A stretch of 64,000 bases of DNA from Ktedonobacterales bacterium (GTDB taxonomy: Bacteria > Chloroflexota > Ktedonobacteria > Ktedonobacterales > DATBGS01): positions 62,001 to 126,000 of the forward strand of contig DATBHW010000011.1 in assembly GCA_036557285.1 (NCBI GenBank). The letters run 5' to 3'. Position numbers and translations under genes: made by a program. The notes under the pieces were generated by a model. It was not told the DNA's origin and searched no databases. It saw only the letters and a list, made by a program, of their open reading frames with translations. Shown one piece after another: positions 38,807 to 49,791 of the stretch (positions are counted from its first letter, which is position 1; every line of letters starts with the position of its first letter).

Positions 38807-39712
38807 CTATGGCGCTGGCCGGAACCCGTATTGTTTCCAGATGGTCTGGCTTTGGGGGGAGCGCATGAAATCAATAAACTGCTGGGAGAGGCCGGGGTTG
38901 GCGGCATGGCTTGCGAGGGCTGCCAGCATAGCAACAGGTGGATTGAAGGACGCCGGGATGGAAAGTTCACGGAGCGCGCTTGCTCCGTGCTGTCGCTCGA
39001 CTGTGAGGTAGTTGGTGTGGTACACAATGGCAAAATCGCCTGCGGAGGGAGACCTGGCTATCGCCTGCGCGGCGGCTGGCCCATCGGTATAATTATTGAT
39101 GAGGTTTCCGTACACACGGGCGGAGTATTGCTGGCCGAAGGCCGGATTGAGGATCATGCTTTCGAGCGTCCCTTGAATGTGTCGGTTGAGGCCGTCCAGA
39201 CTGGAGATGCCAAGATAGCGCAGCCCTGGCCTGGCAAGGTCTTGCAGGGTATGAATGTTGCCAGGGTTGGCCGGTGGAAGCACGACGCTCAGATCATCGG
39301 TTGCCAGCGTTGTCCCTACACTTTGCGTGAATCCAATAGCGCGGGCATCAAGCATCGTCTGGAGGTCATCGGTGATAAGCAGATCGACATCGGCCAGCGT
39401 ATTGACGGTAATAGCGTTCACCTGGGCGGTGGAGAAATTAAAAACGTAGGGGATCGTGAGGCCGCGTGATGTAAAGAAGGCGTCTGCCAGGGCTGGCAAC
39501 ACCAGTTGGAGAGTTGGACTGGCGAAGATAATGAGTCCGCCTTGTTGGACGATATGCTGGGTGCTGGTATTGCCCTGTGTGCTGCCCGGCCCCCAGGCTG
39601 CGCCGCTATTGCCGCCGCAGGCCGCCAGCGCCAGCAGGGGGATGAGCAGGATGGTTAGCTGAAGATGACGCCTGGGCATCCGCTGGGTTCTTTCTTCTAT
39701 TGGGTTCTTCAT
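38807..39712 (-). CDS. ModA-like substrate-binding lipoprotein
   Basis: A 301-residue periplasmic-binding-type protein of the molybdate-binding (ModA) group. The N-terminus is a lipoprotein signal (LTILLIPLLALAAC with Cys as the lipidation site), followed by LIIFASPTLQLVLPALADAF, as in ModA, and the late FIDFMRSPQSQTIWKQYGF. No permease or ATPase for such a transporter is adjacent. It lies 32 bp after the CydA-like gene and closes the respiratory gene row. A role in metal or cofactor supply, or simply as an anchored accessory, is conceivable but not shown. Confidence 0.78.
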   Translation of the reverse strand: MKNPIEERTQRMPRRHLQLTILLIPLLALAACGGNSGAAWGPGSTQGNTSTQHIVQQGGLIIFASPTLQLVLPALADAFFTSRGLTIPYVFNFSTAQVNAITVNTLADVDLLITDDLQTMLDARAIGFTQSVGTTLATDDLSVVLPPANPGNIHTLQDLARPGLRYLGISSLDGLNRHIQGTLESMILNPAFGQQYSARVYGNLINNYTDGPAAAQAIARSPSAGDFAIVYHTNYLTVERQHGASALRELSIPASFNPPVAMLAALASHAANPGLSQQFIDFMRSPQSQTIWKQYGFRPAP

Positions 39713-39744
39713 AAGATAGGTTGTGCATATCCTGTTGCGAAGAT

Positions 39745-41052
39745 CTAAGGTATGTTGTGAATATCGCGTGCTGGCGGCGCGTATTCGTTAGATGGGGTCA
39801 TATCGGGACTTTGTGGCTGAATATACATCCGCCCGTAAATCAAGAAGGGGCGTCGTGACTCTTCGCGGATTAACCCCATATCAAACATCATGCCAACGAC
39901 CACGAAGCCTAGAATCAGGAGGATGATATGGGGTAAGATGCCCCGCGCGCCCCACTTCAACCCTGATTGGATCGATCCCAGATAAGCGCCAAACATGAGG
40001 AAGCCGCTGAGCGTGAGGCCCGCCAGGGAAACATATTTCCAGGGATTCATCAGCCCTAATTGCCCCAGAAAGCTCAGATCGAGACCCAGCACGTTAGGAC
40101 TCCAATGGGAGGGCAGGCAGAGCCAGCCACCAAAGAAGAGGAGTAAGATCATCAGCAGGGTAGCCGCTCGCGCGTGCCTTGCTCTGGCTTTTCGCATCTG
40201 GGCGCTGATGTAGAGGGCGCTGAAGAAGAAGAGCGCGGTTAGCAAGATGACCTGGATCAAGAAGAGAAAAGAACGCTCTCCGCCACCCATGATGCGATAG
40301 AAGGCGCTGGGGGCGTGGTCACGGATCAATTGAGCATACTGCCAGCCGATGAAGGGTTGCAGCATCATCAGACCAATGCCAAACAGCAGGCCCAGCCCGC
40401 CAACAAAGTCCCAATATGCCTTGTCGTCCAGGGAGCGAGCGCGAAGAAAGCGCCAGGCAGCATACGCGCCGATGAGAAACCCTGCATACGAAATGTTGCC
40501 GACAACGCGGTGAAAATCGAGGACAATATCGGTGGGATTGAAGATGACTGATTGCAGGCTGTTTGGCTCTGTAGGCGTGAGCATGTAGGAGGCGACAATA
40601 TCCACCATGAACTGCTGCGCCCAGGCGACAAACATGAGCAGGTAGCCAATGGAGAGATGCAGTGCGCGATAGCCTTTGAGGGTGTCCCAGGTGTAGTACC
40701 AGGTATAGAGGTACAGAATATACAGGATGAACGACGCCGCCTCCATGACGAACGGCCAGAATGTAATGCGAAAGAGAGTTGTCCAGAAGAGCGGCCAGAG
40801 CATCACTAACACCAGCACGAACATGATGGCAATGAAGCTGCCGGGCGCGAAGGTGATAACCTGCACTCTGGCAATGCCGTGGGCAAACCGATCCCAGCGT
40901 TTATCGCCGGTGAAATAATAGACGCTCTCAGTAGTCACGGCGATAAAGATGAGGCCGGTGAGTGCGGCGGCAATCAGAATGTGCGATTCAGCAATGATGG
41001 CAATCACTAGCTGGCTTCCCCAGAAGGAGAAGATCGTATCTGCAAGGACCAT
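39745..41052 (-). CDS. CydA-like cytochrome bd superfamily protein (second copy)
   Basis: A 435-residue polytopic protein related to subunit I of bd-type oxidases. The N-terminal His in AESHILIAAALTG corresponds to a heme ligand, and the internal FHRVVGNISYAGFLIGAY carries the second His. The sequence lacks the GRQPW motif and the acidic helix residues of canonical CydA, so quinol oxidation by the usual site is doubtful. Residues 270-330 and the C-terminus hold further helices. ATG 41052 follows GGAGG. It comes 21 bp after cytochrome b. No CydB gene exists in the window. Confidence 0.78.
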   Translation of the reverse strand: MVLADTIFSFWGSQLVIAIIAESHILIAAALTGLIFIAVTTESVYYFTGDKRWDRFAHGIARVQVITFAPGSFIAIMFVLVLVMLWPLFWTTLFRITFWPFVMEAASFILYILYLYTWYYTWDTLKGYRALHLSIGYLLMFVAWAQQFMVDIVASYMLTPTEPNSLQSVIFNPTDIVLDFHRVVGNISYAGFLIGAYAAWRFLRARSLDDKAYWDFVGGLGLLFGIGLMMLQPFIGWQYAQLIRDHAPSAFYRIMGGGERSFLFLIQVILLTALFFFSALYISAQMRKARARHARAATLLMILLLFFGGWLCLPSHWSPNVLGLDLSFLGQLGLMNPWKYVSLAGLTLSGFLMFGAYLGSIQSGLKWGARGILPHIILLILGFVVVGMMFDMGLIREESRRPFLIYGRMYIQPQSPDMTPSNEYAPPARDIHNIP

Positions 41053-41073
41053 AGCCTACCTCCGCGCGGGCAT

Positions 41074-42291
41074 TTACTGGGTTGGGAAGTTTTCGATTCG
41101 GTAGATCGCCAGTAGTAGCAAGGTAAAGATGCTGAAGGCCACGATGATGCCGGTAGCCAGTGCAACCGGGCGCTTGAAGATGTTCATCGCTGGATGGCGA
41201 TCTACAAAAGGCAGAAGAATCAAGTACATAATGAAGACGCCGAAGATGACCGGCAGCAGGGGAATCATCCAGGCTGGAAGATAGGGCAGCATCTGGTCGG
41301 CGGGAAGCATGAACCATTCTGGCAGGGGTACAAACGTGCTGGTAGCGGCATTGGCAGGCTCATCCAGAGTAGGAAAAGCGGTGAGGGTGAGCAAGACAAT
41401 GACCAGGAAGCAGGCAAGTGTGACGATGCCCTCGCGGAGCGAATGCTGCGGGAAGAAGTAATCGGTGTCGTCTGGAACCTGGCGCTTGCGGCTTTTAGGA
41501 CTATTGGCCTCTTCCTGAGCTTTGATATGGGAGGTAAACTCATCGCCCTCCATGCTGAGCGTGTCGGCCAGGTGTTCTCTGCGTCGCTTGCGATAGTTGA
41601 GCCAGGAGCCATACTGACCCTGGAGGACGACGAACAGCACATGAACAAAGATGAAGCCCAGCAGCAGCGAAGGTAAGACCCAGACATGCAGGGCGAAAGT
41701 GCGCGTGAGTGACGCAGGATTGATACGATCACTGCCGAGCCAGATTTCCTTGAACCAGAGGCCGACGATGGGTGTCCAGCCCATGATGTGTTCACCCACC
41801 ATGAAGGTATAGAAGCCGGTCTGGTCCATACGCAGGCATGCCCCGGTATAGGCGACGGCGGTCATCAAGATGAAGAGGAAGACGCCAGCCACCCAGGTCA
41901 GTTCGCGTGGGCGTTTGTAGGCGCTGGAAAAATAGGTGCGGGCCATATGCAGGCCGAGCAGGAAGACAAGCATATAGCCGTTCCAGTAATGGTAGCCGCG
42001 CACCCAATTGCCAAAGGGGACGGTATAGTTGATGGCCTGAATGCTGTCATAGGCGTGTTCCCAGTCAGGGACATAGTAAAAGAGCAGGAAGATGCCGGTG
42101 GTGATCTGGGTGATGGTGAGCAGAACGATAGCGCCACCAAGAGTATAGAGCCAGCCAAAACGCTTGGGTACCGGATCGGAGAGTAAGCGATTAAGGAACT
42201 CGCTGAGCGGATAACGCTCATCCAGCCAATCGTAGATGTATTGGCCGCCCCGGCTGATGATATTCACCCCTTGGGGACGGAGCGTTTTCAT
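41074..42291 (-). CDS. cytochrome b of a b6f-like complex
   Basis: A 405-residue cytochrome b with about eight membrane helices, fusing the b6-like half to a subunit-IV-like half. Two heme-ligand His pairs are present: H-x13-H in RGYHYWNGYMLVFLLGLHMAR and H-x14-H in LHVWVLPSLLLGFIFVH; the x14 spacing is that of the b6f type. The quinol-site PEWF (PLPEWFMLP) corresponds to PEWY. The position of the b6f heme-c Cys is Thr (LYTLGG), so no covalent extra heme is expected. ATG 42291 follows AGGAGG. Together with the Rieske gene next to it, this is the core of a quinol-oxidising complex. Confidence 0.93.
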   Translation of the reverse strand: MKTLRPQGVNIISRGGQYIYDWLDERYPLSEFLNRLLSDPVPKRFGWLYTLGGAIVLLTITQITTGIFLLFYYVPDWEHAYDSIQAINYTVPFGNWVRGYHYWNGYMLVFLLGLHMARTYFSSAYKRPRELTWVAGVFLFILMTAVAYTGACLRMDQTGFYTFMVGEHIMGWTPIVGLWFKEIWLGSDRINPASLTRTFALHVWVLPSLLLGFIFVHVLFVVLQGQYGSWLNYRKRRREHLADTLSMEGDEFTSHIKAQEEANSPKSRKRQVPDDTDYFFPQHSLREGIVTLACFLVIVLLTLTAFPTLDEPANAATSTFVPLPEWFMLPADQMLPYLPAWMIPLLPVIFGVFIMYLILLPFVDRHPAMNIFKRPVALATGIIVAFSIFTLLLLAIYRIENFPTQ

Positions 42292-42379
42292 GAGGAGCCT
42301 CCTGATAACACGCTAAATTGGCTAAACGCGTGCTCTCCTCGCTGGCCGACGCGCCAGCCTGGCGCGGGCATATTGCCAG

Positions 42380-42856
42380 CTAGTCCAGAATGTCGATATA
42401 CACGTAGAGATCACCATTGACAATTTTGTGCTGGAACTCTCGCAGCGCGTAGGGCGGCGGCCCCGCGATGACACGACCCAGGCGATCATAGACACCTCCA
42501 TGACAGGGGCATTTGAAAAGCTGCTGGTATGCCTGCCATTGAACAGGGCAGCCCATATGTGTGCAGCCGTTGTAAAAGGTGAAAAGCTGGTTGCCGCTTT
42601 TCAAGACAAAGACGCCGACTGGCCGGGTTGTACTTTGTCCTGAGCCAACAATGGGCGCGCTGATGGCGAACTCCGCTGGCGTGTTCGGTGGGATGTTCGC
42701 AATTGGCCCCACTTTCACCCAGGCGGTTGGCTGTGGGCTAAAGATAGCTCCCAGGACATAGCCAGCCACTGGCACGCCCACCAGCAAGGCCAGCGCGCCC
42801 TGGACCGCAGCATTACCCGCGATAAAAAGCCGACGCCTTGAGATTTTTTCGGCCAT
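42380..42856 (-). CDS. Rieske iron-sulfur protein
   Basis: A 158-residue Rieske protein for the bc-type complex. The N-terminus has a twin-arginine-like SRRRLF and a single membrane helix (residues 8-35). The cluster motifs are CTHMGC and CPCHGG, and the Pro loop GPPPYAL follows. ATG 42856 is chosen because the longer frame to 42910 would overlap the upstream gene. It hands electrons from quinol to a partner that in this locus is not an obvious cytochrome c. It is followed by cytochrome b. Confidence 0.95.
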   Translation of the reverse strand: MAEKISRRRLFIAGNAAVQGALALLVGVPVAGYVLGAIFSPQPTAWVKVGPIANIPPNTPAEFAISAPIVGSGQSTTRPVGVFVLKSGNQLFTFYNGCTHMGCPVQWQAYQQLFKCPCHGGVYDRLGRVIAGPPPYALREFQHKIVNGDLYVYIDILD

Positions 42857-42906
42857 AGTATGCTCACTTCCACCTGGAATCAGAGGCTGGAACAGCCCTG
42901 TTGAGG

Positions 42907-43143
42907 TCAACGGTAGGGAATCTTAATAGCAATGAACATGGGAAGGACGGCGGCCAGGATGCTGAAGACGGTGACAAGCCAGATGAAGCTAAACAGCGAG
43001 AAGAGCGCGTAGCGGCGCTTGCGCCAGAGTTTAGGAAGCTGAACAACCATCACCACGAGCGGTACCAGGATGAAGACCGAGAGCAACAGGATAACGATGC
43101 CCCAGCCTACCCAGGCTTCGGGTTGTATGACGACGTTTGTCAT
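42907..43143 (-). CDS. small two-helix membrane protein of the respiratory cluster
   Basis: A 78-residue protein with two hydrophobic segments (about 10-32 and 47-70) joined by a basic loop (LPKLWRKRRYAL). I do not recognise a family. It sits between a CydA-like gene and the Rieske gene in the same direction, so it may be a small structural subunit, as small CydX-like or PetG/L/M-like peptides are in other complexes. ATG 43143 has AAGGTGAT upstream; the longer frame lacks a site. Confidence 0.68.
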   Translation of the reverse strand: MTNVVIQPEAWVGWGIVILLLSVFILVPLVVMVVQLPKLWRKRRYALFSLFSFIWLVTVFSILAAVLPMFIAIKIPYR

Positions 43144-43197
43144 GCGTATCACCTTCTTGATGGGATTCGACGCCCGCCTACAAGCTGTAGAACACAT

Positions 43198-44586
43198 TTA
43201 CCGCGATGGTTGAAGTTGGAGCGCAGGCAGCGGCATGCTGCCGTTGATGACATTCGTTTGTGGGTTGCTGTAGCGAATGCCCCCCATGACAATCATGAGC
43301 AGCATCAGGACAACCCCCAGGCTAATCAATGTCCATTGCGCGCCTCGGCCCATGTTGCCCCAGGTCCACTTCCTTGATTGGTTCCAATAGATGGGGAGAG
43401 TGAGCAAGGTGAGTGCTACAAAACCGATCAGGCAGACATATTTGACGGCCATTGAGCCAAGCACTGGAACGCTCGCCGGAATAATTCCCAGGATGGCAAG
43501 AATGCCCAGTGCCAGGAGCGCGGCATTGCAATAGCCCCGAGTCAGCCGTTCGCGCGAGGTAGGCGGCAGTTCTGCTCGTGCGCCTAGCTGCATAACTTGC
43601 CTTATAGTGCTATAGGTGCGCAGTTCCTCAACTGCGGGCGCGCCCACGCCAGCCTCAACGCGCATGGCTGTCAGCGCCTGCACACCTCGGCGCTCGATGA
43701 CTCCGCGCCGGATGCTCAGCCACATATAGAGGTCGCTCAACACGAAGGTCAGACCGACCAGTGCCATCTGAAGCAGCCACGCCCAGGCTTTATCACCAAG
43801 CATCATGCGGTAGAACGTCGCTGGACTGCCCGTCTGGATACGCAGCACATAGAAATAGCCAACCAGCGGCTGCAACAGCTCAAAACCGAAGCCCCAGAGG
43901 AAGCCATAGTGAGCGACCCAATGATAATAGGCTTTGTCCAGCGAACTGCTGCGTCTGCGCTTGCGGAACGCGCGCCAGCCGCCCCAGGCAGCGAGCAGAA
44001 AACCGGCGTATGAAACATTGCCGATGAGGCGGTGAAAAAGTTCTGGCCCCCAGGTGGCGTTGAACGCCGCTTTGACGGCATCTCGACCATTCGGCGTGAG
44101 CATATAGGAGGTCCACATGGTAATGAGGACGATAAAGACTGTTTCGGCGAGGGCATAGGTGTAGATAAGCGATTGATGCAGGACACGATGCCCCTCGCGC
44201 CTGGGCCAGAGATAGGCGTAAGCGATCAAGGAGATGGTCATGATAATCCAGGCAGCGAAGATAGCGAGCAATGGGGCGAAGAAGAGACTGGACATGATCG
44301 CCATTAAGCGAGGATAGAGGCCGAACATCAGGACCAGGCCAAAGACGGCCAGGGTTGCGCCAAATGAATAGGTTTGCGCCAGAAACCAGGCAAATGTCTT
44401 GGTGAATCGCTCCCAGGGCTGGCTCTGGCGACTGGGAGGAACGCTGCCGCTGACGGCCATGATGATGGCGGTTCCCATAATAAAGGCCACCAGCAGGATA
44501 TGAAATTGCATGACGATGCCAATGGTAAAGCCATTGGGCAAGAATGGAAAATTGATAGAGTTCGGTCCTAGATTTGGAACAGGCAT
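43198..44586 (-). CDS. CydA-like cytochrome bd superfamily protein (first copy)
   Basis: A 462-residue polytopic protein related to CydA, with about nine membrane helices. Heme-ligand His candidates are in MQFHILLVAFIMG and LFHRLIGNVSYAGFLLAAWGG, the same motifs as in the copy at 39745-41052. The region that in E. coli CydA reads MEFQFG is VLMFG here, so the conserved Glu is absent, and no GRQPW is seen. The two copies are thus related but divergent, which would fit a heterodimer, like the CydAA' type proteins. The start at 44586 has only a weak purine-rich site. Confidence 0.8.
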   Translation of the reverse strand: MPVPNLGPNSINFPFLPNGFTIGIVMQFHILLVAFIMGTAIIMAVSGSVPPSRQSQPWERFTKTFAWFLAQTYSFGATLAVFGLVLMFGLYPRLMAIMSSLFFAPLLAIFAAWIIMTISLIAYAYLWPRREGHRVLHQSLIYTYALAETVFIVLITMWTSYMLTPNGRDAVKAAFNATWGPELFHRLIGNVSYAGFLLAAWGGWRAFRKRRRSSSLDKAYYHWVAHYGFLWGFGFELLQPLVGYFYVLRIQTGSPATFYRMMLGDKAWAWLLQMALVGLTFVLSDLYMWLSIRRGVIERRGVQALTAMRVEAGVGAPAVEELRTYSTIRQVMQLGARAELPPTSRERLTRGYCNAALLALGILAILGIIPASVPVLGSMAVKYVCLIGFVALTLLTLPIYWNQSRKWTWGNMGRGAQWTLISLGVVLMLLMIVMGGIRYSNPQTNVINGSMPLPALQLQPSR

Positions 44587-44614
44587 AGTTTCTTGCTCTT
44601 CTTGTCTTTCGCTG

Positions 44615-45466
44615 CTAGGTGATGTGTTTGATCTTGAACGCCGCGATGCTCATACCCAGGCTTGCCAGGAGGGCAAGTGCTCCGAAAGTCAGGCTATAGG
44701 CGAGCGGTGTGGCTGAGCCAGCCAGAAGCTGGCGCGCCAGCGTCACGGTATGGCTGACAGGATTGAGCAGTGAAATGGTTCTCATCCAGCCCGGCAGCAG
44801 GTCATCTGGCAGCAGCGCGTTGCTGCCAAAGAGCAGCAGCAGAAAGAGAAACATCTCGATCAGCATCAATGCTTCGATGCTTTTGGTGAGCAGCGCGACC
44901 ACATAGGAGAGCATGGCGAAGGCCAGGCTAAACACGGCCAGCAGCGCCAGCAGGCCGCACAGTGCAGACATCTGCGCCGTGATGGGGGTATGCAGCAGCG
45001 CCAGCAGGAGCAGCAAGACCAGCCCCTGGAGCAGTGTGCGCGAGCCATCGGCCACTGCTTTGCTCAGCAAGATGGCGCTGCGATGGATGGGAGCCGCCGC
45101 CAGGCGTTCCAGAAAGCCGGATTCGCGGTCCCCCAGCAGGCCAATTCCGGCAAACGATGAGCCAAAAAGCGCCGCGATGACCAGCATGCCGGGCGCAAAG
45201 AAACTCAGCGATTGCATGCTGGAAAACCCTGGTGTCTGGTGGATGCTGGCGAAAATCTGGCTCAGCAGCCAGAGCGTCACGGCAGGCAGCGCCAGCACCA
45301 GCGCCAGTACCAGCGGCAGGCGGAATGTTTTCTGCCAGGCCCGGCAAAAGAGCCAGAAGGTCTCAACCGCCAGCCTCCAGGCTGCCTCCATTATCGCTGC
45401 TGCGCTGGAGGGCTGCTGCGCTCTCGATGGTTGGTGGTTGTTCGCTAGGGTGCTTGATTGTCTCAT
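44615..45466 (-). CDS. ABC-2 type transporter permease
   Basis: A 283-residue ABC-2 permease with about six membrane helices. LGDRESGFLERLAAAPIHRSAILLSKAVAD is the conserved inner loop of the family, and TISLLNPVSHTVTLARQLL the C-terminal signature. Its ATG at 45466 overlaps the stop of the ATPase gene (ATGA at 45463-45466), so the two are coupled and form an exporter. AGGA precedes the start. The substrate is unknown. The longer frame to 45901 lies inside the ATPase gene and was rejected. Confidence 0.87.
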   Translation of the reverse strand: MRQSSTLANNHQPSRAQQPSSAAAIMEAAWRLAVETFWLFCRAWQKTFRLPLVLALVLALPAVTLWLLSQIFASIHQTPGFSSMQSLSFFAPGMLVIAALFGSSFAGIGLLGDRESGFLERLAAAPIHRSAILLSKAVADGSRTLLQGLVLLLLLALLHTPITAQMSALCGLLALLAVFSLAFAMLSYVVALLTKSIEALMLIEMFLFLLLLFGSNALLPDDLLPGWMRTISLLNPVSHTVTLARQLLAGSATPLAYSLTFGALALLASLGMSIAAFKIKHIT

Positions 45467-46566
45467 CGCTGCTGATCCTGCTTGTAACGCCGCCGAAACG
45501 GCTGCTCTTTGTGGGATTTTTGATCTGGTGAGGGTAAAGCTGGCTCTCCAGCGAGGCTCTCGCTCGCTGCGAGCGGCTTGCCGGTGGCGCGGAAGAAAAC
45601 GTCCTCCAGCGTTGGACGGCTGAGCGTTAGCCTGCGGAGCGCCAGCCCCGCCGTTTCCAGAAGCCGCGCTATATGTGGAATGGCCTCTGAGCCATCCATC
45701 ACTTCGAGGCGCACGTATCCTTCGGCTTCTCCCTGGCTGGCTGAGCGGATGAATGGCTCGTGTTGAAGCAGGTGGTGCGTGCTGGCTGCCTGCTGCGGTT
45801 CGCCCATCTCCAGGGTGAGTATGTCTCCCTGAATCTGCGCTTTGAGCGCGGCTGGCGTGCCCTCCATGACTAGTCGGCCACGATCCAGAAAGACAACCCA
45901 TTCACAATAGCGCTCGATCTCTTGCGTGTCGTGGCTGGCAGCTATGATGGTCAGCCCCTCTTGCTGGAGCGTCAGTAGATAGCGCCAGAGGGCGGCTTTT
46001 CCCGCTGTGTCAAGCCCGGTGGTTGGTTCATCCAGCAGCAGCGCATCTGGCTGATGAACAAGGCTGCACGCCAGCGCCAGACGCCGCCGCATCCCGCCGG
46101 AATAGTGGGCGGCCCGACGCCGGGCATGCTCGCTGAGGCCCAATAATTCCAGCAAAGCTCGTGTGCGCTGGTGTAAGTGGTTGCCGCTCAGCCTGTGCAG
46201 GCGTCCGGCAAGCAGGAGATTGCCTTGCCCGCTGAGATACTGGTCTATGCCGCTCTGCTGGGCCACGTAGCCGATGCGCCGACGCACCGCGATACTCTCG
46301 CCTGGGGCTGGCAAGCCGAAAAGCTCAATGTGGCCGCTAGTTGGCTGCAAGAGGCCCGCCAGCAGACGCAGCAGGCTCGTTTTGCCCGCGCCGTTTGGCC
46401 CCAGCACTCCTACGCACGCTCCGGGGGCAACCTCCAGACTGACGTTTTCCAGCGCGCGGGCGCCATCGCCAAAAACCAGGGATACCTCTGTAAGTCGCGC
46501 GATGCAAAGCTCTGCGGATGGAGTGATGCGCGGGGCATTGGCGGTGGTAAGATCACTTATAGCCAT
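45463..46566 (-). CDS. ABC transporter ATP-binding protein
   Basis: A 367-residue ATPase for the ABC-2 exporter: Walker A GPNGAGKTS, signature YSGGMRRRL, Walker B ALLLDEPTTGLD and the H-loop ASHDTQEIE. After the ATPase domain (about 25-240) comes a DUF4162-like C-terminal domain (VRLEVMDGSEAIPHIARLLE). ATG 46566 overlaps the end of the stress-protein gene by 14 bp, so it is part of the same transcript. This is not a CydDC-type transporter, which would have fused membrane domains. It may export a lipid or an electron-transfer factor; that is open. Confidence 0.93.
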   Translation of the reverse strand: MAISDLTTANAPRITPSAELCIARLTEVSLVFGDGARALENVSLEVAPGACVGVLGPNGAGKTSLLRLLAGLLQPTSGHIELFGLPAPGESIAVRRRIGYVAQQSGIDQYLSGQGNLLLAGRLHRLSGNHLHQRTRALLELLGLSEHARRRAAHYSGGMRRRLALACSLVHQPDALLLDEPTTGLDTAGKAALWRYLLTLQQEGLTIIAASHDTQEIERYCEWVVFLDRGRLVMEGTPAALKAQIQGDILTLEMGEPQQAASTHHLLQHEPFIRSASQGEAEGYVRLEVMDGSEAIPHIARLLETAGLALRRLTLSRPTLEDVFFRATGKPLAASESLAGEPALPSPDQKSHKEQPFRRRYKQDQQR

Positions 46567-49174
46567 AGCGCCCCTCGTGAAAATCGCCGGTTGCCCGCCA
46601 CTTAGCGATAACCTGATCGAGTACCGCGCCGGTCACTTCGCAGAATCCCATCTGCCGGGCGTTCCCTTCCACCGATTGGATGACCTGGCCCTTTACAAAG
46701 CCAGGCACGTTTGCGAGACGACGCTCAGCTTCGGCTGTCCAGAGCAGGCGCGGCTCGTTACGCTCGCGGATATGTTCGGAAACCTCGCCCCAGAGTTCGT
46801 ACTTGACTTCCAGAGCTTCAGGAGTAATCAATCGGCCCAGGTTTTTCTTATAGGCCGTCCACTCCACACGCCAGCGAGTCAATTCGCGGCAAAAATCGGG
46901 GACTTCTTCCAGCTTTGCCAGCGCCTCGGCGGTCCAGACAAAATCATGTTCGTAGGTCTTTTCGCTGGCCGGGTGGCCGTAGCCGAGCTTCTTGCCCATC
47001 TGAGCGATGAACTCTGGTGTGACTTCATTCAGCCCTTTGCGTTCGGCGCGCTGGGCCGACAGATTTTCAACGAGTTCGGCTGCGCGCTCTGCGGACCCTT
47101 TCCCGCTGCTCTCGGATCGCTGGGCCAGCATATCAACGTGTTCCCGCGCCGCCTCGGTGAAAGCTGGTCGCTCAGCGGCCTCAGCCCCCCTTAGCGCCTC
47201 GCCTCTTGGAGTCTCTGTGTGTGGGATGGGGCAGGCTCCGTTTGTTACCGGGCTTTTCGCTTCTTTTTTCGGCGCTTTCTTCTGCTGGCGGGCGATTTTA
47301 GCCTCGACCATCTTGACCATCTCGCCTTTGGCAATCTCGATACCCTTTTCCACAATGGGCAGCGTGATCGCGCTGGCCTGCTGCTCGTCGGCATGAGTGA
47401 GGATAATCTCTTCGGTCATTTCGCGCATGAAGCCTTCGGGAACGAGGGCCAGGCGCTGCCGCGCTTCAGGCGTCCAGGTGATTTGCGGGGATTCTGCCGC
47501 TGCTGCCTCTGCTTCGGCCTCCTGGCCGGTTGCAGAAAGGGCGAGCGGAGTGTTGGTGTGCAGGGCGCTGAGATCGCCGATGGTTTCTTGAACGATGGGG
47601 CTGGCGAAATCAACAGTCACGGCTGGCAGGCGCTGCACACGCGCCATTTTTTCGATGCGCGCTTTGGCGCGGCGGCGCGCGTAGGCGTCCGTCATGGTCC
47701 AGAGCAGCTTCCTGGCGTCTTCAGTCCATTTCACCTTCACGCCGTCGAAGGTTTCCTCTTCAGAGATTGCTCCCTCTTGCGCGGCAGCCGTCTCGATGAG
47801 ACGCTTATCAATCACGGTAAAGCGGACCGGACCAGAGTGGCAGACCGGACAGGCCACCGGCAGCACATTGCGGGCGGCATAGCCGCATTCGCCGCAGATA
47901 TAGGTGGCTCCCTGGTCGGCTGATTGGCTCTGTTCTTCAATGGCGATCTGCTTTGCGGCGACTCCCATAGCGCGGGCGGCTGATTCTGGCAGAATATCTC
48001 TGACGGCATCATCTACGATGCTGTTGGAGATAACAGAGTGTCCACGCTCCATAGCGTAGCGGTGAATGGCTGTGCGCGCGATGCCGCGCACGAAGGCTGG
48101 GACGCGCTCCATGCGGGCGCTGGCTTCGGGTGTCCAGGTAATGGTGGCTTCAGCGCGAATATCAATCTGGGGGACGTAGACGCTGCTGCATATCAGCACG
48201 TTGCACGAGACTTGCTGGAGCAGATTATGGCTGTTGCTGCCAATATCCATCTCCTGACCGCTGTGGACGCCGATCCGCCCCATCACCAGCAGCCAGGGAC
48301 GTTCGCGGCGGGTCCACTGGAGGGTTTTTTCCCAGGCTTTGCCGTCCATCAGCGTGACTTTTAGTTCGACTCCCTCTTCAGTGGCGATGGTTCTGGCTAT
48401 TTGCAGGTGCGATTCGTAGATTTTCGCCAGGCCGGTATCAATGATTTCTTCGTGAAGCTGCTCCTGTTCTTTGAAGCGGAAGACCTTCGACGCCTCCTGG
48501 GAAAGTACATTGACGATGCTGTTGAAGACAGAATAGTGCAGGTAGGGGTCATAGACCGCAACCGCCTCGACGGGCCGGTTCAGGGCGCGGCCCAGTTCAA
48601 GAGCGGCTTTTAACCCGCCGAAGGACTGCGGGCTGCCATCAATGGCGACGGCAATACTCCCCTCGGATTGGTCTTGCAGCGGGCGCGTATCTTTGATGAC
48701 CAGCGTATCAGTCCTGATGCGACGGATGACACGCTCGCAGACGCTGCCGATCTGGCTCTCTTTCACCGCGCCCATGCCCAGCGCGCCCATAACGACGAGA
48801 TCATAGCGGCTTTCTTCGATGTCCTTTACCAACTCCTGCCAGTTCTGGCCGTCAAAGGTTTTCGACTGGAAGGGAAGCTGTGCCAGGGCGCAGCGAGCTT
48901 CCATGACATCCAGGTAGGAGTCAGAGATGAGCCGCAAGCCGCGTGTAATCAGGGTATCGTGAATCTTGCGCTGGCGCTCCAATTCCTGCTCGTCCTGATA
49001 CTCTTCAGGGAGCGTGTACTCCATTTGCTTGAAGCGGTAATCGTGCATACGCGCGGCATAGACGTGGCTGCCAACCAGCCGAGAGCCAAAGGCGCGGGCG
49101 AGCGCGATGGCGAGATCAATAGAGGCATGGGAGTAATCAGAGTTATCCACCGGAACATAAATGGTATCGAACAT
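46553..49174 (-). CDS. UspA-UspA-zinc ribbon-multiple PCP_red-like repeat protein
   Basis: An 873-residue multidomain protein. Two UspA domains (1-165 and 172-332) both keep the nucleotide motif G-x2-G-x9-G-S (GALG then GS at 143-144; GRIG then GS at 312-313). A rubredoxin-like zinc ribbon follows (C427, C430, C442, C445). Repeats that start with a W-T-x-E/D-A motif, at W347, W483, W567, W747 and W812, and a degenerate one near 671, resemble the PCP_red domain (protochlorophyllide reductase 57 kDa-like, PF08369). A Glu/Lys-rich linker lies between. It starts with AAAGGAGG upstream. The role is unknown; a nucleotide-controlled redox or cofactor-binding scaffold beside the respiratory genes is a reasonable guess. 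Confidence 0.75.
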   Translation of the reverse strand: MFDTIYVPVDNSDYSHASIDLAIALARAFGSRLVGSHVYAARMHDYRFKQMEYTLPEEYQDEQELERQRKIHDTLITRGLRLISDSYLDVMEARCALAQLPFQSKTFDGQNWQELVKDIEESRYDLVVMGALGMGAVKESQIGSVCERVIRRIRTDTLVIKDTRPLQDQSEGSIAVAIDGSPQSFGGLKAALELGRALNRPVEAVAVYDPYLHYSVFNSIVNVLSQEASKVFRFKEQEQLHEEIIDTGLAKIYESHLQIARTIATEEGVELKVTLMDGKAWEKTLQWTRRERPWLLVMGRIGVHSGQEMDIGSNSHNLLQQVSCNVLICSSVYVPQIDIRAEATITWTPEASARMERVPAFVRGIARTAIHRYAMERGHSVISNSIVDDAVRDILPESAARAMGVAAKQIAIEEQSQSADQGATYICGECGYAARNVLPVACPVCHSGPVRFTVIDKRLIETAAAQEGAISEEETFDGVKVKWTEDARKLLWTMTDAYARRRAKARIEKMARVQRLPAVTVDFASPIVQETIGDLSALHTNTPLALSATGQEAEAEAAAAESPQITWTPEARQRLALVPEGFMREMTEEIILTHADEQQASAITLPIVEKGIEIAKGEMVKMVEAKIARQQKKAPKKEAKSPVTNGACPIPHTETPRGEALRGAEAAERPAFTEAAREHVDMLAQRSESSGKGSAERAAELVENLSAQRAERKGLNEVTPEFIAQMGKKLGYGHPASEKTYEHDFVWTAEALAKLEEVPDFCRELTRWRVEWTAYKKNLGRLITPEALEVKYELWGEVSEHIRERNEPRLLWTAEAERRLANVPGFVKGQVIQSVEGNARQMGFCEVTGAVLDQVIAKWRATGDFHEGRYGYK

Positions 49175-49188
49175 GGCGCCTCCTTTGG

Positions 49189-49791
49189 CTACATATCGGG
49201 CGGTGGGTCGTCCTCTGTTGGGAATGATTGGAATTCCAGCGTGAGGCCGCTCGTTTGTACAGGAAGATCAAAGACCAGTGAGCAGGGGTAACGTTTATTG
49301 GGCTGGAAGGTTGCTTTGAGAAAATTGGGAGTCTTTTGCCAGGATGCGAGCATAGCGGTGGTAGTGGCATCGCTTTTATGAGTGTTGAGCTGCGCGTCTT
49401 CGATCTGGAGCATATCAGCGGTGGGATGTTGGGGCTGATCGGTCGTATTCGTGAAAGTGAAGTCTATGACGACGAATTTCCCACGAGCCTTCACCATGTT
49501 GGAGCCTAACCGAAGTGTCAGGGCGGCGTGGGCGGCGCGAATGTTCCAGCGCGTGTTGCCAACGTCAAAAGTCTGGCCTATCTTGTGTGGCTGGTCCACT
49601 TGCTGTTGCAGGCTCATCATGTCGCGCATGAACGGGTCGCGCTGGAGGGTGCTCTGGTCAACGGTGCAACCGATGAGCAAGCCTCCTAGAACGATACCCA
49701 GTGCTGCCAGGCCAGGCGCACGGCGCCAACGGTGATGCCGAGCACGCTTGCGCCTGATGAACCAGGGCGTGAATAGCCTCCACCTTCTCAT
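49189..49791 (-). CDS. lipoprotein with DUF4352-like domain
   Basis: A 200-residue lipoprotein. A basic stretch (RRKRARHHRWRR) precedes the hydrophobic signal and lipobox LGGLLIGC. The mature part carries a DUF4352/telokin-like beta-sandwich (ARGKFVVIDFTFTNTTDQPQHP and PNKRYPCSLVFDLP). ATG 49791 follows GGAGAG at 9 bases. Its stop lies 14 bp before the UspA-fusion gene, so it is likely the first gene of that transcript. It may act at the outer face near the respiratory complex. Confidence 0.75.
   Translation of the reverse strand: MRRWRLFTPWFIRRKRARHHRWRRAPGLAALGIVLGGLLIGCTVDQSTLQRDPFMRDMMSLQQQVDQPHKIGQTFDVGNTRWNIRAAHAALTLRLGSNMVKARGKFVVIDFTFTNTTDQPQHPTADMLQIEDAQLNTHKSDATTTAMLASWQKTPNFLKATFQPNKRYPCSLVFDLPVQTSGLTLEFQSFPTEDDPPPDM

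Follow-up and report, generated by a model that had tools for sequence, protein, structure and literature searches.

A conserved gene row joining a Rieske/cytochrome b module to a pair of CydA-like proteins in a Ktedonobacterales genome: a probable composite quinol oxidase

As a rule, members of the cytochrome bd family are plain quinol oxidases and contribute little to the proton gradient. The window studied here, a stretch of 64,000 nucleotides from a Ktedonobacterales bacterium, raises the question of what such an enzyme might do when its genes stand in one row with those for a cytochrome b and a Rieske protein. An earlier note, made from the sequence alone, had placed these genes, two divergent CydA-like proteins among them, in a single row with a small membrane protein, an ABC-2 exporter, a ModA-like lipoprotein and a Usp fusion, and had suggested a composite quinol-oxidising complex. 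The window sequence, Pfam matches and open reading frames bear out this inventory in full, all the genes named being in place on the minus strand:

46553..49174, minus strand: Usp-Usp-PCP_red fusion, companion of OR-N CydA, with four PCP_red domains (Pfam PF08369)
45463..46566, minus strand: ABC-2 exporter ATPase (abcA), DrrA-like
44615..45391, minus strand: ABC-2 exporter membrane protein (abcM), of 258 aa if read from 45391, its likely start
43198..44586, minus strand: CydA2, CydA'-like partner (Pfam PF01654, 3e-9)
42907..43143, minus strand: small membrane protein with two helices, of 78 aa if read from its likely start, the ATG at 43143; a longer ORF starts at 43197
42380..42856, minus strand: Rieske [2Fe-2S] protein with a twin-arginine N-terminus (PF00355, 8e-11; likely start 42856)
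41074..42291, minus strand: cytochrome b with b6-type His spacing, fused to a subunit-IV-like part (PF00033, 5e-35)
39745..41052, minus strand: CydA1, catalytic bd-like subunit (PF01654, 1.1e-21)
38807..39712, minus strand: ModA-like lipoprotein (SBP_bac_11), outside the conserved unit

Read in the sense of transcription, the order is usp/PCP_red, abcA, abcM, cydA2, the small membrane protein, rieske, cytb, cydA1 and the modA-like gene, and the core unit runs from cydA2 through the small two-helix membrane protein, Rieske and cytochrome b to cydA1. The host genome (5.1 Mb, about 97% complete) gave no match to PF02322 anywhere, the search being positive in 10 of 14 controls, which upholds the earlier statement that CydB is missing. 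It contains no PF01654 protein besides CydA1 and CydA2, and its one copy of COX1 lies on a different contig from the operon. An ordinary CydA with a CydB elsewhere, the outcome that would have undone the proposal, is ruled out by the CydB-less genome, the lone PF01654 pair and the position of both proteins in the tree, apart from ordinary CydA.

The proposal had also been made to depend on conservation of the gene order, and the order is conserved, outside the host's class and not within it. None of 46 other genomes of the class Ktedonobacteria carries a close copy of CydA2 (best E about 6e-5), so that the idea of conservation within the host lineage was dropped and conservation was sought outside the class. 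A survey of 400 genomes of the phylum gave a match at E<=1e-10 in 33, in most of which about 3 kb separate one CydA gene from a second, and a wider scan of 85,000 species genomes yielded 49 loci in Dormibacteria-type MAGs, other Chloroflexota, Rubrobacter, Nitrospira and one MAG labelled Bacillota. The genes cydA2, rieske, cytb and cydA1 follow one another in this order and on a single strand at 38 strictly scored loci and at L092, and thus at about 39 loci outside the host genome, which is far above chance. These are chiefly Dormibacteria-type Chloroflexota, plus Rubrobacter loci in which cytochrome b is split in two; contig ends truncate all the other loci but those of Nitrospira and one Rubrobacter copy. 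Dormibacteria, and not the Ktedonobacteria in which the earlier note had suggested looking, are the main home of the operon. Between cydA2 and rieske, most loci also encode a small, hydrophobic two-helix protein of about 75-90 aa; a PHROGs search with this family returned no match.

The motif said to be common to CydA1 and CydA2 is real (FHRVVGNISYAGFL / FHRLIGNVSYAGFL) and includes the equivalent of E. coli H186. By residue alignment, H24, E104, H181, E397 and R400 of CydA1 correspond to H19, E99, H186, E445 and R448 of E. coli CydA, and all five are kept in every CydA1 row that reaches the site. The earlier note had left the final acceptor unclear; this needs correction, since CydA1 retains the ligands of the O2 site (H19, E99, E445), a set that CydA2 breaks at E99. 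In CydA2, H29 and H185 match H19 and H186, of which the former is kept in all rows and the latter in all but one, while the E99 position is Ala, Ile or Val and, in the window, the E445 position is Tyr. Both proteins lack W441, M393 and the Q-loop residues K252 and E257, the former position being gapped and the latter not conserved. The pair accordingly has the make-up of the OR-N type, with two CydA paralogues, no quinol site and no CydB.

AF2 models of the two proteins (pLDDT 83.8 for CydA1 and 83.9 for CydA2) found their best PDB matches in E. coli bd-II (E=1.4e-9) and in CydA chains (1.4e-6), respectively, with CydB chains at 3.5e-3 or weaker; TM-scores are modest (0.44-0.62), and the models thus support a CydA fold and not its details. 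In our own tree, CydA1 and CydA2 form separate clades of similar branching, each of which holds the sets window+L060+L061, Dormibacteria, and Rubrobacter with those Nitrospira proteins that are linked to alternative complex III (ACIII). The last grouping is supported at 99% for CydA2 and weakly, at 58%, for CydA1. Window CydA2 falls into one clade with the ACIII-linked CydA' of Nitrospira (91% bootstrap) and window CydA1 beside the matching CydA with weak support (58-76%); other bd-like proteins of Nitrospira make up a third clade. The pattern is as would be expected for an ancient duplicated heteromeric pair inherited together (CydAA', OR-N type), and the earlier idea of a heterodimer gains from these two paralogue clades of similar topology.

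The b6f-type His spacing reported for cytochrome b is likewise genuine: H101/H115 and H202/H217 have b6-type spacing and are conserved in all covered rows. The protein has PEWF in place of PEWY and lacks Cys35, hence no covalent heme cn. The Rieske ligands C116, H118, C134 and H137 are conserved in the motifs CTHMGC and CPCHGGVY, where Gly takes the place of the usual Ser of CPCHGS in every one of the 39 rows, whereas the second Rieske protein of the host, which is linked to a cytochrome c, has this Ser. Loss of the Ser lowers the potential of the cluster, and CPCHGG in the operon protein fits a menaquinol/heme b partner. The cytochrome b tree joins the window with L060/L061 and places Rubrobacter next (99% support). 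The Rieske tree does not resolve these neighbours and does not firmly group the window with L060/L061.

The statement that cytochromes c and f are missing holds for the window operon, in whose genes there is no CXXCH, and does not hold for its closest relatives. On the operon strand, no CXXCH ORF was found within 4 kb in Chloroflexota loci except at L060, L061 and L075, and the one at L075 lies inside another gene and looks spurious. Those at L060 (12387-12941) and L061 (11332-11934), close downstream of cydA1, encode related mono-heme cytochromes c, likely lipoproteins, and these two loci are the only ones with such a gene at the operon. In the family f43, all 12 CydA2-bearing genomes lack PF00034, and the six that were also tested for PF13442 and for PF01578, a protein of cytochrome c assembly, have neither, relatives being positive in the same searches. 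A cytochrome c can thus not be obligatory. The host does have cytochromes c, namely a b6/IV/Rieske/cytochrome c-cupredoxin set on the operon's contig and a caa3 oxidase, so that a cytochrome c could still serve the window operon, and absence of cytochrome c as a universal rule was rejected on account of L060/L061 and the host. The second complex III set of the host (G000 contig C11 15692-18938; L109 7692-10941) consists of cytochrome b6, subunit IV, a Rieske protein and a cytochrome c-cupredoxin fusion. COX1 was kept in all six f43 genomes tested; L111 and L112 have no detectable cytochrome c yet retain an aa3-type oxidase, and the one subunit II inspected, that of L112, keeps CuA-type residues.

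We think it fairly probable that the five core genes encode a quinol:O2 oxidoreductase, made up of two modules of known kinds, whose bd-like pair receives electrons straight from the Rieske protein. The Rieske/cytochrome b module would oxidise (mena)quinol at its Qo site, sending one electron down the b hemes, as in a Q cycle, and delivering the second, on the outer face, to the Rieske cluster. The Rieske protein would then pass its electron to the CydA1-CydA2 heterodimer, taking the place of cytochrome f/c1 and of a mobile cytochrome c, and the heterodimer, having lost its own quinol site, would use CydA1 to reduce O2. A structural role would fall to the small two-helix protein, and Usp/PCP_red and the ABC-2 exporter probably assist in assembly or regulation. 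Gene content and order, co-inheritance, the conserved ligands, the lost quinol loop and a carrier family without cytochrome c are features of the genomes themselves; we infer the physical complex, the direct transfer from Rieske to CydA, O2 as acceptor and the proton stoichiometry. The idea of a composite complex gains from the five-gene unit, from the carrier family devoid of cytochrome c and from Nitrospira, where alternative complex III fills the Rieske/cytochrome b slot. The reading as a whole has to be weighed against the cytochrome c lipoprotein at L060/L061, the host's cytochrome c-cupredoxin set and caa3 oxidase, the Rieske tree, and the loss of M393, the second ligand of b558, which makes the heme of electron entry uncertain.

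Several of these points would follow if an ordinary complex III and an OR-N oxidase were connected through a carrier encoded elsewhere. The Rieske protein would then reduce a soluble carrier, be it the cytochrome c lipoprotein or a cupredoxin, free or joined to a cytochrome c, and this carrier would feed either CydAA' or a separate aa3/caa3 oxidase. The lipoprotein genes at L060/L061, the host's cytochrome c-cupredoxin fusion, the retention of COX1 in f43 with the CuA-type residues of L112 where no cytochrome c was found, and the cytochromes c within the Nitrospira cluster of OR-N, cytochrome c, Rieske, cytochrome b and OR-N genes (PMC6606698) would all agree with it. However, the loci share no carrier gene at the operon, all 12 f43 genomes tested are devoid of cytochrome c, and the CydA genes flank Rieske and cytochrome b in a fixed order, and we consider a soluble carrier rather unlikely. 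A role of the CydA-like pair as a quinone-interacting or reverse-electron-transfer module that does not reduce O2, as once proposed for bd-like proteins of Nitrospina (PMC3578206), would suit the divergence from CydA and the loss of M393 and the Q-loop. It appears highly improbable to us, as CydA1 has H19, E99, E445 and R448 in essentially all sequences, the residues for binding quinol are missing, and most carriers have other aerobic oxidases.

An explanation of another kind, compatible with direct transfer from the Rieske protein, is that the cluster is a further example of one already described. Murali et al. 2021 reportedly catalogued the OR-N subfamilies with their gene context, and the window's cluster may be among them. 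Paired OR-N CydAA' proteins are indeed established, including OR-N5 with alternative complex III (PMC12342949, PMC10839748), but among the papers of the library searched none was found to describe an OR-N/Rieske/cytochrome b unit that lacks cytochrome c, or a link to Usp/PCP_red. We regard such a prior description as unlikely, though to be taken seriously.

The distribution of the Usp/PCP_red protein follows that of the CydA proteins closely. It matches (E<=1e-20) in 32 of the 400 genomes of the phylum survey, all of them among the 33 with OR-N-like CydA and none without (Fisher p about 1e-46, with kinship ignored; 13 families), and the sole CydA-bearing genome that lacks it is 82% complete. 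None of 13 class relatives that lack the operon has the domain PF08369, and of 14 control genomes only one, a phototroph, has it; Nitrospira and Rubrobacter genomes with OR-N carry it. Both Usp domains have the ATP-binding motif G-2x-G-9x-GS, as judged by eye. As the PCP_red domain also occurs in protochlorophyllide reductase, the protein might take part in assembly or in the handling of tetrapyrroles. Tentatively, at slightly below an even chance, we put forward a cytochrome-c-free bc-bd quinol oxidase: the Rieske protein would bind to a bd-family heterodimer without a quinol site and reduce it, a bd oxidase would thereby belong to a Q-cycle machine that translocates protons, and assembly would need the Usp/PCP_red protein, the tetrapyrrole-related domain of which goes with OR-N oxidases across the genomes examined.

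The Usp/PCP_red gene is near the operon in about 20 loci and an abcA-like gene in about half of the loci; both the exporter and Usp/PCP_red were rejected as strict operon members, the Usp/PCP_red genes of f43 lying elsewhere. In L054, L057 and L191, Usp/PCP_red also adjoins single OR-N CydA genes. The usp/abc part of the window (44615-49174) resembles the arrangement in the Dormibacteria family f18 (56% identity, L063), unlike the window's CydA and cytochrome b, which are nearest to L060/L061, and the region is possibly a mosaic with parts that differ in their nearest relatives. The ModA-like lipoprotein (38807-39712) follows cydA1 in this genome only and scores low against true ModA models. 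It sits near the position at which L060/L061 carry the cytochrome c lipoprotein and was rejected as a core member, having no counterpart at other loci.

If a Rieske/cytochrome b module does feed a bd-family enzyme, this would be a coupled quinol oxidase that uses neither heme-copper chemistry nor cytochrome c, and many of the related genomes with the operon are apparently devoid of cytochrome c. To our knowledge, the electron donors of OR-N enzymes are unproven, and a concrete donor would thereby be named for one OR-N branch. Furthermore, Usp/PCP_red, which co-occurs so cleanly with OR-N CydA, provides a direct way into the assembly or heme supply of these uncharacterised oxidases.

Among known systems, canonical cytochrome bd (CydAB) shares the CydA fold and the O2-site residues with the operon pair, which differs in having no CydB, Q-loop or M393 and in leaving quinol oxidation to a separate module. 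The cytochrome b6f/bc complexes have the b6-type His spacing, the subunit-IV-like C-terminus and the Rieske ligands in common with the window operon, whereas the latter lacks cytochrome f or c1 and Cys35, has PEWF for PEWY, and carries CPCHGG in its Rieske protein. In the SoxABCD-type quinol oxidase of Sulfolobus and the actinobacterial bcc-aa3, complex III-like and oxidase parts act as a unit without soluble cytochrome c; the oxidase there is of the heme-copper type and not of the bd superfamily. Closer still is Nitrospira moscoviensis, in which the complex III_1 genes, Rieske and cytochrome b included, adjoin two CydA-like (OR-N) genes, bd-like_1 and bd-like_2, and a III-IV supercomplex was proposed (PMC6606698). 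Our locus L193 from Nitrospira matches this cluster (OR-N, cytochrome c, Rieske, cytochrome b, OR-N), which differs from the window operon in including c-type cytochromes, none of which stands between the modules of the latter, and in having one or more CydA-like proteins that the tree places in a clade apart from the window pair. The closest CydA'-CydA pair outside Chloroflexota and Rubrobacter is OR-N5 CydAA' of Nitrospirales, which has the same two-paralogue make-up. In Nitrospira L090 it lies behind the alternative complex III genes ActB/C/DE, including an ActD-cytochrome c fusion, as published (PMC12342949), and quinol is oxidised there by ActB/C with heme c subunits and not by Rieske/cytochrome b. 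These Nitrospira OR-N clusters contain cytochrome c, and the operon described here is therefore the cytochrome-c-less form of the OR-N/complex III theme; it is real and conserved, and it probably encodes a composite quinol oxidase.
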